A stretch of DNA of 64,000 bases from an uncultured Lacinutrix sp. (GTDB lineage: Bacteria; Bacteroidota; Bacteroidia; Flavobacteriales; Flavobacteriaceae): positions 1 through 64,000 of the forward strand of contig CAKZMU010000078.1 in assembly GCA_937129145.1 (NCBI GenBank), in the 5' to 3' direction. The translations under genes were made by a program, and so were the position numbers. Shown here piece after piece: positions 11,362 to 63,277 of the stretch. How positions within the stretch are numbered: position 1 is the stretch's first letter; the number at the start of each line of letters is the position of its first letter. A model generated the notes under the pieces. That model worked only from the letters and a program-made list of their open reading frames with translations. It searched no databases and was not told where the DNA came from.

Positions 11362-11369
11362 TACCTTTG
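11362..11369 (+). promoter_or_regulatory. -7 promoter box immediately before panD, predicted leaderless start
   Basis: TACCTTTG, a perfect consensus match, lies in the 13-base gap between panC and panD and only 4 bases before the panD ATG. If used, transcription would begin at or within a base of the start codon. It may add panD-specific expression on top of read-through from panC. Confidence 0.55.
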
Positions 11370-11373
11370 CCCA

Positions 11374-11724
11374 ATGCAAATTCAAGTTGTAAAATCTAAA
11401 ATTCACCGTGTAAAAGTTACAGGTGCAGATTTAAATTATATAGGAAGCATTACCATTGATGAAGACTTAATGGACGCTGCCAATATTATTCAAGGTGAAA
11501 AAGTTCAAATTGTAAATAATGACAATGGCGAACGCCTTGAAACCTACGTTATTCCTGGCCCTAGAAATAGTGGAGAAATCACCTTAAATGGTGCTGCTGC
11601 AAGAAAAGTTGCCGTAGGTGACACGCTTATTTTAATAACCTACGCGTTTATGGATATTGAAGAAGCCAAAACTTTTAAGCCATCGTTGGTATTTCCAGAT
11701 GAAAGTACCAATTTATTAAAATAA
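11374..11724 (+). CDS. panD: Aspartate 1-decarboxylase proenzyme
   Basis: Pyruvoyl enzyme that decarboxylates aspartate to beta-alanine for pantothenate synthesis. At 116 residues it has the normal size. The self-cleavage site Gly24-Ser25 lies in YIGSITID, where Ser25 becomes the pyruvoyl group. Other conserved features are [14 protein letters not shown], the [17 protein letters not shown] segment and the [17 protein letters not shown] core. It sits 13 bases behind panC with its own -7 box in the gap and 4 bases ahead of the flippase-like gene. Confidence 0.98.
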
Positions 11725-24767: not shown

Positions 24768-24843
24768 GCGCTTAATTGTAGCTATTATTGACGCAAGATA
24801 CTAAAAAAGCAAGATGAATTTTTACAATATCCACGAATTAATA

Positions 24844-24851
24844 TACCTTTG
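24844..24851 (+). promoter_or_regulatory. -7 promoter box for uvrC, predicted leaderless start
   Basis: TACCTTTG, a perfect consensus, lies exactly 4 bases before the uvrC ATG. This spacing is the same as at panD and thiL and predicts a transcript beginning at or next to the start codon. Confidence 0.6.
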
Positions 24852-24855
24852 AGTA

Positions 24856-26646
24856 ATGGCTCAATCTTCTTTGGAAATACAACTAAAAACCTTACCAAAT
24901 TTACCAGGTGTTTATCAATATTTTGATAAAAACGATACCATTATATATGTTGGGAAAGCCAAAAATTTAAAGAAAAGAGTCAGCTCTTATTTTACAAAAA
25001 CGCATGACAACGGAAAGACACGAATCCTCGTAAAAAAAATAGCGAACATTAAGCATATTGTGGTCGATACTGAAACTGATGCGTTGTTACTTGAAAATAA
25101 TCTAATAAAAAAATACAAACCACGATACAATGTATTGTTGAAAGATGACAAATCGTACCCATGGATTTGTATTAAAAAAGAGCGTTTCCCAAGAGTGTTT
25201 CAAACAAGACGATTAATTAAAGATGGCAGCGAGTATTTTGGACCTTACACAAACGTGAAAACGGTTTACACATTGCTGGATTTAATTAGAGGCTTGTATC
25301 AATTACGCACGTGCAATTACGATTTATCCCAAGAAAAAATTGAGGCAGGAAAATACAAAGTATGTTTGGAGTATCATTTAGGCAACTGTAAAGGTGCTTG
25401 TGAAGGCAAAGAAACGGTTGCTGAGTATGAAGAAAACATTAAAGCCATTCGCCAGATTTTAAAAGGGAATTTTAAAGATTCTTTGCAGCGTTTTAAACAA
25501 CAAATGCAAGAGCTTGCTGAAAACATGCACTTTGAGGAAGCCCAAAAAGTAAAAGAAAAAATAGAGATATTGGAGAATTACCAAGCAAAATCTACTATTG
25601 TTAATCCTAAAATTAACAATGTGGATGTTTTCTCTATTGTGAGCGATGAAAGTTATGCCTACATCAACTTTTTACAAATCTCTTTGGGCTCTATTGTGCG
25701 TTCCCATACGCTTGAAATTAAAAAGAAACTGGACGAAACAGATAAACAATTATTGGAAATTGCCATTGTTGAAATCAGGCAGCGTTTCAACTCTTTAAGT
25801 AAGGAGGTTTACGTGCCTTTTAAGATTGATATGGGCGACGATGTGAAGGTCACTATTCCTAAGTTAGGCGACAAAAAACACATTCTGGACTTATCAATTA
25901 GAAATGCTAAATATTACAGACTGGAGCAATTAAAACAGGTTAAAATTGTTGACCCAGACCGACACGCCAATCGTATTATGGCACAAATGAAAGCTGATTT
26001 AAGACTGAAAGAAGAACCACGGCATATTGAGTGTTTTGATAACAGTAACATACAAGGCACACATCCTGTGGCAGCTTGTGTGGTGTTTAAAAACGGAAAA
26101 CCAAGCAAGAAAGACTACAGACATTTTAATATAAAAACGGTTGAAGGCCCTGACGATTTTGCCTCAATGGAAGAAGTGGTTTACAGACGTTATAAACGCT
26201 TGTTGGACGAAAAACAACCATTACCACAACTTATTATTATTGATGGAGGCAAAGGGCAATTATCCTCAGCTTTAAAAAGTTTGGATGCCTTAAATTTGAG
26301 AAAAAAAATTGCCATTATCGGAATTGCAAAACGTTTAGAAGAATTATTCTATCCAAATGACCCAATTCCATTATATTTAGATAAAAAAAGCGAGACCCTT
26401 AAAATTATTCAGCAATTACGTAACGAAGCGCATCGTTTTGGGATTGAGCACCACCGAAATAAACGAAGCAAAAGTGCGTTAAATACAGAATTGGAAACCA
26501 TTCCCGGGATTGGCGAAAAAACCATTGTGGAGTTGTTGAAACATTTTAAATCAGCCAAACGTATTTCGTATGCAAAGCTGGATGAACTTGAGGATGTGGT
26601 TGGTGTGTCTAGGGCTCAGAAAATTTATGATTATTATCATGGATAA
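24856..26646 (+). CDS. uvrC: UvrABC excinuclease subunit C
   Basis: Makes both incisions in nucleotide excision repair. The 596 residues match the family. An N-terminal GIY-YIG nuclease domain (LPGVYQYFDKNDTIIYVGKAKNLKKRV, residues 15-41) is followed by the Cys-containing linker (CNYDLS and CLEYHLGNCKGACEG), a UVR domain for UvrB contact (about 205-240, MHFEEAQKVKEKIEIL), the RNase-H-like second nuclease (IECFDNSNIQGTHPVA and LIIIDGGKGQLSSAL) and a C-terminal helix-hairpin-helix pair (LETIPGIGEKTIVELLKHF). The start is fixed by the -7 box 4 bases upstream. Confidence 0.98.
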   Translation: MAQSSLEIQLKTLPNLPGVYQYFDKNDTIIYVGKAKNLKKRVSSYFTKTHDNGKTRILVKKIANIKHIVVDTETDALLLENNLIKKYKPRYNVLLKDDKSYPWICIKKERFPRVFQTRRLIKDGSEYFGPYTNVKTVYTLLDLIRGLYQLRTCNYDLSQEKIEAGKYKVCLEYHLGNCKGACEGKETVAEYEENIKAIRQILKGNFKDSLQRFKQQMQELAENMHFEEAQKVKEKIEILENYQAKSTIVNPKINNVDVFSIVSDESYAYINFLQISLGSIVRSHTLEIKKKLDETDKQLLEIAIVEIRQRFNSLSKEVYVPFKIDMGDDVKVTIPKLGDKKHILDLSIRNAKYYRLEQLKQVKIVDPDRHANRIMAQMKADLRLKEEPRHIECFDNSNIQGTHPVAACVVFKNGKPSKKDYRHFNIKTVEGPDDFASMEEVVYRRYKRLLDEKQPLPQLIIIDGGKGQLSSALKSLDALNLRKKIAIIGIAKRLEELFYPNDPIPLYLDKKSETLKIIQQLRNEAHRFGIEHHRNKRSKSALNTELETIPGIGEKTIVELLKHFKSAKRISYAKLDELEDVVGVSRAQKIYDYYHG

Positions 26647-62212: not shown

Positions 62213-62220
62213 TATCTTTG
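62213..62220 (+). promoter_or_regulatory. -7 promoter box for thiL, predicted leaderless start
   Basis: TATCTTTG, a perfect match, lies exactly 4 bases before the ATG at 62225. It also shows that the TTG at 62207, which would lie upstream of the promoter, is not the start. Confidence 0.6.
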
Positions 62221-62224
62221 CTGC

Positions 62225-63277
62225 ATGATAGAAGATAAAAACCAAACGAGAACGCCATTAAGCAATTTAGGAGAGTTTAAACTTATAGACCACCTAACAA
62301 AAAACTTTAAAGTTACCCATAAAAGCACATTAAAAGGCATAGGAGATGATGCTGCTGTTCTTGGGTTTGATGATAAAAAAGTAGCTGTTTCAACAGATTT
62401 GTTGGTTGAAGGTGTTCATTTTGACTTGAGCTATATGCCTTTAAAACACTTAGGCTATAAAGCGGTTATGGTGAACCTATCGGATATTTATGCTATGAAT
62501 GCCATGGCAACTCAAATTACCGTATCGATTGCTGTGTCCAATAGATTTCCATTGGAAGCTCTTGAAGAATTGTATGCAGGAATTGAAGCTGCAGCAAAAG
62601 TGTACCAAGTAGATGTAGTAGGAGGCGACACAACATCTTCAACATCAGGATTGTTAATTTCTGTTACTGCTATTGGTGAAGCAAACGAAGAAGATTTAGT
62701 GTATAGACAAGGCGCAAAACCAAACGATTTATTAGTTGTTACTGGTGATTTGGGAGGTGCGTACATGGGACTTCAAGTATTGGAACGCGAAAAAGAAGTG
62801 TTTAAAGTCAACCCAAATAATCAACCAGACCTTGATAAATACACATATATTATTGAGCGTCAATTAAAACCAGAAGCTCGAAAAGATATAGTAACACTTT
62901 TAAAAGAGCTTGATGTAAAGCCAACATCGATGATAGATATAAGTGATGGGTTATCTTCTGAAATCATGCATTTATGCAAACATAGTGATGTAGGTTGCGA
63001 TGTATATGAAAACAAAATACCACTTGACCCTCAAGTAATTACCACTTGCGAGGAATTTAATATAGATAGCACTACTATTGCTTTAAATGGAGGAGAAGAC
63101 TACGAATTGCTCATGACAATTTCACAAGAAGATTTTCCTAAAATAAAAGCCAATCCTAATTTAACGGTTATTGGTTATATGGCAGGCAAAAGTGCAGGAA
63201 TGCATTTGGTAACAAGAGCAGATGAAAAAATACCTTTAAAAGCCCAAGGCTGGAACTCACTTAGCCAATCGGAATAG
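62225..63277 (+). CDS. thiL: Thiamine-monophosphate kinase
   Basis: Phosphorylates thiamine monophosphate to thiamine diphosphate, the active coenzyme. 350 residues from the ATG at 62225. Motifs are GEFKLIDHL, KGIGDDAAVL (metal-binding Asp pair), STDLLVEGVHFDL, AVMVNLSDIYAMNA, VVGGDTTSS, TGDLGGAYMGLQ and MIDISDGLSSEIMHLC, as in the PurM/ThiL fold. Its 3' end overlaps the convergent small Cys-rich gene by 21 bases. No other thiamine gene and no TPP riboswitch are seen here. Confidence 0.97.
   Translation: MIEDKNQTRTPLSNLGEFKLIDHLTKNFKVTHKSTLKGIGDDAAVLGFDDKKVAVSTDLLVEGVHFDLSYMPLKHLGYKAVMVNLSDIYAMNAMATQITVSIAVSNRFPLEALEELYAGIEAAAKVYQVDVVGGDTTSSTSGLLISVTAIGEANEEDLVYRQGAKPNDLLVVTGDLGGAYMGLQVLEREKEVFKVNPNNQPDLDKYTYIIERQLKPEARKDIVTLLKELDVKPTSMIDISDGLSSEIMHLCKHSDVGCDVYENKIPLDPQVITTCEEFNIDSTTIALNGGEDYELLMTISQEDFPKIKANPNLTVIGYMAGKSAGMHLVTRADEKIPLKAQGWNSLSQSE

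Follow-up and report, generated by a model that had tools for sequence, protein, structure and literature searches.

Promoter boxes next to the start codons of uvrC, panD, thiL and other genes predict leaderless mRNAs in Flavobacteriaceae

In the draft genome of an uncultured Lacinutrix sp. (3.99 Mb), panD, uvrC and thiL each carry a −7 promoter box ending exactly four nucleotides before the ATG, and the same arrangement recurs in orthologues from many genera of the order. We write the number of bases between box and start codon as N4, N5 and so on. The box, its short spacing and the excess of this spacing over chance were observed in this genome, and the scarcity of boxes at N7–14 both here and among orthologues. 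The sequence makes it very probable that these are ordinary sigma-ABfr promoters whose position lets transcription begin on the A of the AUG or beside it, which would give a leaderless mRNA. The transcript ends, the translation of leaderless messages and any regulatory benefit are what we infer from this arrangement.

Results

Boxes and genes in the window

The window, the 64,000-nt stretch of DNA analysed here, is part of contig C78 of the draft. The first-pass annotation had described a perfect −7 box 4 nt before the ATG of uvrC, and this was confirmed: the box TACCTTTG lies at 24844–24851 (+ strand), followed by AGTA and by the ATG at 24856. The gene (596 aa; 24856–26646, + strand; TIGR00194, 530 bits) is predicted to be leaderless, with transcription starting on the A of its ATG. 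It is separated from a divergent RimK-like ATP-grasp gene on the − strand by an 88-nt intergenic region (24768–24855). The end of the box shares bases with an in-frame TGA, which leaves the reading frame no possible upstream extension, and the first 100 residues contain no further Met. The panD box, also TACCTTTG, lies at 11362–11369 (+ strand), one base past the panC stop codon, and is at N4 from the ATG of panD (116 aa; 11374–11724, + strand; TIGR00223), a gene located 13 nt downstream of panC whose next Met does not come before residue 33. Judged from their reading frames, the start codons of uvrC and panD can be taken as firm. For thiL (350 aa counted from the ATG; 62225–63277, + strand; TIGR01379), the box TATCTTTG is found at 62213–62220 (+ strand), again at N4, and an in-frame TTG precedes the ATG by 18 nt. 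The start codon is ATG in all three genes, whose identities are supported by NCBIfam matches above the cut-off. Among named loci, the closest uvrC (94%) comes from a Flavobacteriaceae metagenome bin, followed by two from Flavivirga (86–87%) and by those of other Flavobacteriaceae.

The pattern TANCTTTG-N4-ATG (TANCTTTGN4ATG) has exactly three matches in the window, at 11362 (panD), 24844 (uvrC) and 62213 (thiL), against a chance mean of 0.19 and with none of 100 shuffles reaching three or more; the claim that these three genes share it therefore stands. Each of the three boxes is an exact match to TAHHTTTG, the sigma-ABfr −7 element, and the other TAHHTTTG matches within 150 nt upstream of the listed starts in the window are all at least 17 nt away. 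No strict TAHHTTTG was found within 150 nt upstream of panC. For uvrC, the same distance holds no TAHHTTTG aimed at the gene besides the N4 box, and no TTTG was seen at the −33 distance.

Spacing between box and start codon in the genome

Genes were called by an ATG-only hexamer method in 864 kb, or 21.6% of the genome, comprising the window and 40 further stretches. Across 692 genes, TAHHTTTG-to-ATG spacers were distributed as N0–3 in 1, N4 in 11, N5 in 3, N6 in 2 and N7–14 in 4, followed by a broad hump at N15–36; a 675-gene version gave the same picture, and choosing the longest ATG frame left 10 at N4. When the 60 bases upstream of each of 693 genes were subjected to 200 mononucleotide shuffles, the mean at N4 was 0.39 and the maximum 3 (11 observed), and for N3–6 the mean was 1.45 and the maximum 5 (16 observed). 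With 54 hits spread over 66 positions in 692 genes, any one position has a chance level of about 0.1%. Leadered promoters set in at around N15 in this genome. The spike at N4, the sparse zone at N7–14 and the hump at N15–36 thus show that the box has two main positions, which correspond to a leader of about zero or of about 11 nt and more. Taking the N4 spike together with the conservation described below, the distance between core promoter and start codon is short and fixed in this set, with uvrC varying from N3 to N6.

An excess of N4 spacing across whole genomes had been proposed as a check, and its outcome depends on the control used. Raw counts of TAHHTTTG-N4-ATG do not exceed those at N9, either across 15 genomes from the family (1236 vs 1313) or across the complete set of 148 Bacteroidota genomes (5695 vs 6472). 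They are well below them in two families (679 vs 960 in f23 and 697 vs 1191 in f30); in family f31, the ratio is 202 to 66 over 8 genomes, a figure that calls for caution about codon phase. Raw counts vary strongly with spacing and N9 falls in another codon phase than N4, which makes N9 a poor control, and codon phase likely explains the missing raw excess. At phase-matched spacings, N4 stands out about twofold in the 864 kb of the genome (N1 11, N4 22, N7 10, N10 7, N13 13), and 80 named loci, with uvrC counted in, gave 17, 41, 18, 17 and 17 for the same spacings. Reversed patterns were a further control: TANNTTTG-N4-ATG occurs 125 times in the genome vs 104 reversed and TANCTTTG-N4-ATG 25 vs 12, while the latter summed over five relatives of the same genus gave 51 vs 59. 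Raw whole-genome counting was dropped because matches away from gene starts dominate and its controls at other spacings are not matched for codon phase. The excess thus appears once codon phase or gene starts are controlled, and is absent from the raw family count.

Conservation in orthologues

Orthologues were taken from up to 60 genomes for uvrC, panD and thiL and from 40 genomes or 10 chosen ones for the other genes, and the region before the best-aligned ATG was scanned with TANNTTTG. The rows read were 50 of 60 places for uvrC, 50 of 52 for panD, 50 of 59 for thiL and 30 of 39 for uvrB. A box at N3–6 was present in 29/50 rows for uvrC, 32/50 for panD, 35/50 for thiL and 15/30 for uvrB, or, by genus, in 23/40, 26/43, 30/44 and 11/25. 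Smaller samples gave 7/10 for rbfA, 8/10 for holB, 4/10 for recX, 3/10 for DUF3109, 5/10 for lpxD and 2/10 for rsmI. The fixed distance of 4 nt suggested by the first-pass annotation is borne out by panD, with N4 in all 32 kept rows, and closely approached by thiL (32 N4 and 3 N5 in 35 kept rows); it does not extend to uvrC, where only 16 of 29 are at N4, with 9 at N5, 3 at N6 and 1 at N3. In uvrB, 14 are at N4 and 1 at N3.

Pooling orthologues at one genome per genus over nine families, with rsmI and the epimerase left out, gave N3=4, N4=91, N5=17, N6=5, N7–14=2 and N15–40=21, 20 of the latter at N15–31. Since these genes were picked for having N3–6 in the Lacinutrix genome, the pool shows conservation and not an unbiased rate. 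No consensus box was found within 52 nt in 14/50 rows for uvrC, 15/50 for panD and 8/50 for thiL, and where the near box was lost, a box was sometimes present at N17–40 instead (5 rows for thiL, 3 for DUF3109 and 5 for uvrB).

Scanning uvrC in the 80 named loci, we found 43 with N3–6, 7 with N15–52, 29 without a box, one without an ATG and none at N7–14. Gene calls for uvrC in these loci (n=78) gave N3=3, N4=18, N5=19 and N6–14=0. Non-uvrC genes there (n=1084) gave N4=4 and N7–14=5, so that the class is rarer in these loci than in our genome sample. Six uvrC loci from Tenacibaculum and Polaribacter carry TATTTTCG at N4, a possible variant −7 box; as these are 6 of the 29 box-less loci, the strict motif may undercount.

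Sequence signs of the transcription start

Among the orthologue rows, 73/91 at N4, 15/17 at N5 and 5/5 at N6 have a pyrimidine as the fourth base past the box; these counts come from related rows and are not independent. A pyrimidine that stays four bases past the box is what would be expected if transcription always began (+1) on the fifth base, which is the A of ATG at N4 and one base upstream of it at N5. The bases at −4 to −1 before the ATG are A in 20/104 cases in the N3–6 class vs 386/844 in leadered genes, so that the initiation signal typical of leadered genes is weak in this class. About half of this depletion is attributable to promoter position, as A also makes up only 266/844 of the first four bases after the box in leadered genes (22/104 in the N3–6 class). 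A −33 TTG located 15–24 nt upstream of the box was no commoner in the N3–6 class (5/26) than in leadered genes (41/211). The pyrimidine and the A-poor stretch are consistent with a leaderless mRNA, though as sequence signs they do not replace mapped ends.

Genes that share the arrangement

Within the 864 kb sampled, the N3–6 set also includes uvrB, recX, rbfA, the methylmalonyl-CoA epimerase gene (mce), holB, DUF3109 and lpxD, as well as genes that we read from sequence as a transporter and a histidine kinase. recX and holB were identified through Pfam, as their NCBIfam scores did not reach the cut-off. A second UvrB-like gene with 47% identity was seen at G000:C17:31631-33553, the main uvrB being on contig C8; the contamination estimate of the draft is 3.36%.

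In 30 loci of relatives, uvrA has its box at N15–21 in 15, at N6 in one, at N9 in one and at N32 or more in four, with none in nine; this partner in the repair pathway thus has N3–6 in only 1/30 loci and does not share the architecture. Within the 45 nt before one of these uvrA genes (L296), the leader carries AACTTTGC repeated several times in tandem directly after the −7 box, and shorter versions occur in same-genus uvrA loci (L292–L294).

The divergent rbfA and epimerase genes (L016:2785-2852) lie 68 nt apart, each with its own N4 TAHHTTTG box. This arrangement is also present in a second genome (G001), while the epimerase N4 box is missing in the other eight rows, giving N4 in only 1/9 relatives' rows for that gene. 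Two candidates were set aside. rsmI had been considered as an N5 gene, with its box inside the end of the upstream gene and N3–6 in only 2/10 orthologues, and locus L029 would have required an alternative start that differs from the called one.

In lpxD, spacing follows the start codon: the box is at N5–6 in the five orthologues that start with ATG, and of five with a GTG or TTG start, four have boxes 28–35 nt away and one has none in 45 nt. Like the ATG starts of the three window genes, this co-variation may reflect a strict AUG requirement, within gene calls that accept ATG starts only.

Taxonomic range

A wider search covered 36 more genomes besides our own, with 50 places read. Outside the order, N3–6 was found for uvrB, uvrC or thiL in only 1/44 rows of the class or phylum, and that row is doubtful, being an N5 box at an alternative ATG that precedes the aligned start by 18 nt, in a genome of family f31 (G085). 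Four further rows from the family gave one N4 and one N13, both for thiL, and two without a box. As far as tested, the trait for uvrB, uvrC and thiL belongs to Flavobacteriales.

Two other lineages use the short spacing. One genome of the same class (G172; 400 kb, 295 genes) has an N4 peak (N3=1, N4=8, N5=2, N6=3), and its N7–14 zone, with 9 boxes, is not empty. In family f31, which belongs to another class of the phylum, 187 genes were called in 254 kb from three genomes (G201, G193 and G158; L469–L488). Of the 16 boxes found there within 45 nt of the ATG, 10 are at N3–5, suggesting mainly leaderless promoter use.

Discussion

The reading that we favour takes the box for the −7 element of an ordinary promoter of the primary sigma factor (sigma-ABfr). 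At N4, transcription would start on the A of the start codon, and at N5 or N6 one or two bases before it. A start on the A of AUG yields a leaderless mRNA, which would need translation from a 5′-terminal AUG.

It is improbable that the genes are leadered or borne on operons, read from more distant promoters, and that the N4 boxes are incidental. Such an account would suit panD, which at 13 nt after panC may be read through, and the raw genome-wide N4 counts, which do not exceed those at N9, but uvrC, divergently oriented, has an upstream region of 88 nt and no second consensus box directed towards it. The recurrence of N3–6 in more than half of the genera sampled for uvrC, panD and thiL also argues against coincidence at a chance level of only about 0.1% per position. 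A short, nearly fixed distance to the start codon could also mark TAnnTTTG-N4-ATG as a signal for translation initiation acting at the RNA level and not as a promoter, an idea to which the lack of Shine-Dalgarno sites reported for Bacteroidota (PMC6847099) lends some appeal. We consider it very improbable, as the same octamer is used at N15–36 in other genes of the genome, the pyrimidine of N5–6 genes keeps its four bases from the box while the distance to the ATG shifts, and the A-rich initiation signature is weaker in this class.

The first-pass annotation had predicted leaderless mRNAs for a defined class of DNA repair and cofactor genes. Short spacing in a restricted set is well supported, with leaderless transcription as its best reading; the functional class is not. 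A regulon of this kind, selected to be leaderless for instance for translation under stress, would account for the presence of uvrB, uvrC, recX and holB in the set, all of which keep N3–6 in relatives to varying extents, yet it is unlikely. The mostly leadered uvrA of the 30 relatives' loci, among which the Lacinutrix uvrA is not included, led us not to accept it, and with 21.6% of the genome sampled the set already extends to rbfA, lpxD, panD, thiL, mce and DUF3109. As a rule for the set, the repair and cofactor regulon was therefore rejected.

Having preferred promoters placed at the start codon, we give even weight to a broader proposal. Flavobacteriaceae may keep a housekeeping core (uvrB, uvrC, panD, thiL, rbfA and holB) leaderless through long-term selection, with leaders of about 3–10 nt being avoided, and in some Bacteroidota lineages, such as family f31, leaderless placement may be the main use of TAHHTTTG.

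Named genes whose leader is predicted to stay at about zero length across genera offer a direct test of ribosome initiation on a bare AUG. Its importance stems from the lack of Shine-Dalgarno sites in Bacteroidota and from a survey restricted to Pribnow-like boxes that reports leaderless genes in only 1 of 37 Bacteroidetes/Chlorobi genomes, while stating that this restriction may have led to an underestimate for Bacteroidetes (PMC3160421). For start annotation and expression design in this family, the spacings suggest a working rule of N4–6 or about N15 and more.

The boxes described here have the same exact −7 consensus as the sigma-ABfr −7/−33 promoters (TAnnTTTG) of Bacteroidota and the same predicted 4–5 nt to the start; as in those promoters, the −33 element may be weak or absent. 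In Flavobacterium johnsoniae, the distance from the −7 box (TAHHTTTG) to the transcription start is 4 or 5 nt, the −33 element is reported as weak and 87% of predicted leaders exceed 10 nt (PMC6847099). Unlike in usual sigma-ABfr promoters, the box is here placed so that the predicted +1 falls on the start codon. Leaderless mRNAs are already known from the phylum, and in Flavobacterium from the same family, as a minority class of similar size: 5.5% among the mRNAs of 890 coding sequences in F. psychrophilum (PMC9723704) and, in Bacteroides, 5′ UTRs shorter than 10 nt making up about 3.7% (PMC7366714). A base-composition study suggests leaderless mRNA and/or use of S1 in Bacteroidetes (PMC5397173), its consulted text naming neither the box nor the genes. 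Our literature search, which covered mostly open-access main texts without supplements, found no conserved leaderless gene set in Flavobacteriaceae. As far as that search shows, the new element is the gene-specific conservation across genera: the consulted parts of the published work on leaderless mRNAs in Flavobacterium and Bacteroides describe neither a conserved gene set nor conservation between genera, and the examples given for B. theta are transposases, sensor kinases and transporters (PMC7366714). The leaderless genes of Actinobacteria, Deinococcus-Thermus and archaea, as presented in the Pribnow-like-box survey (PMC3160421), likewise have a promoter element in a set position directly before the start codon, the placement that we describe here for the sigma-ABfr −7 box.
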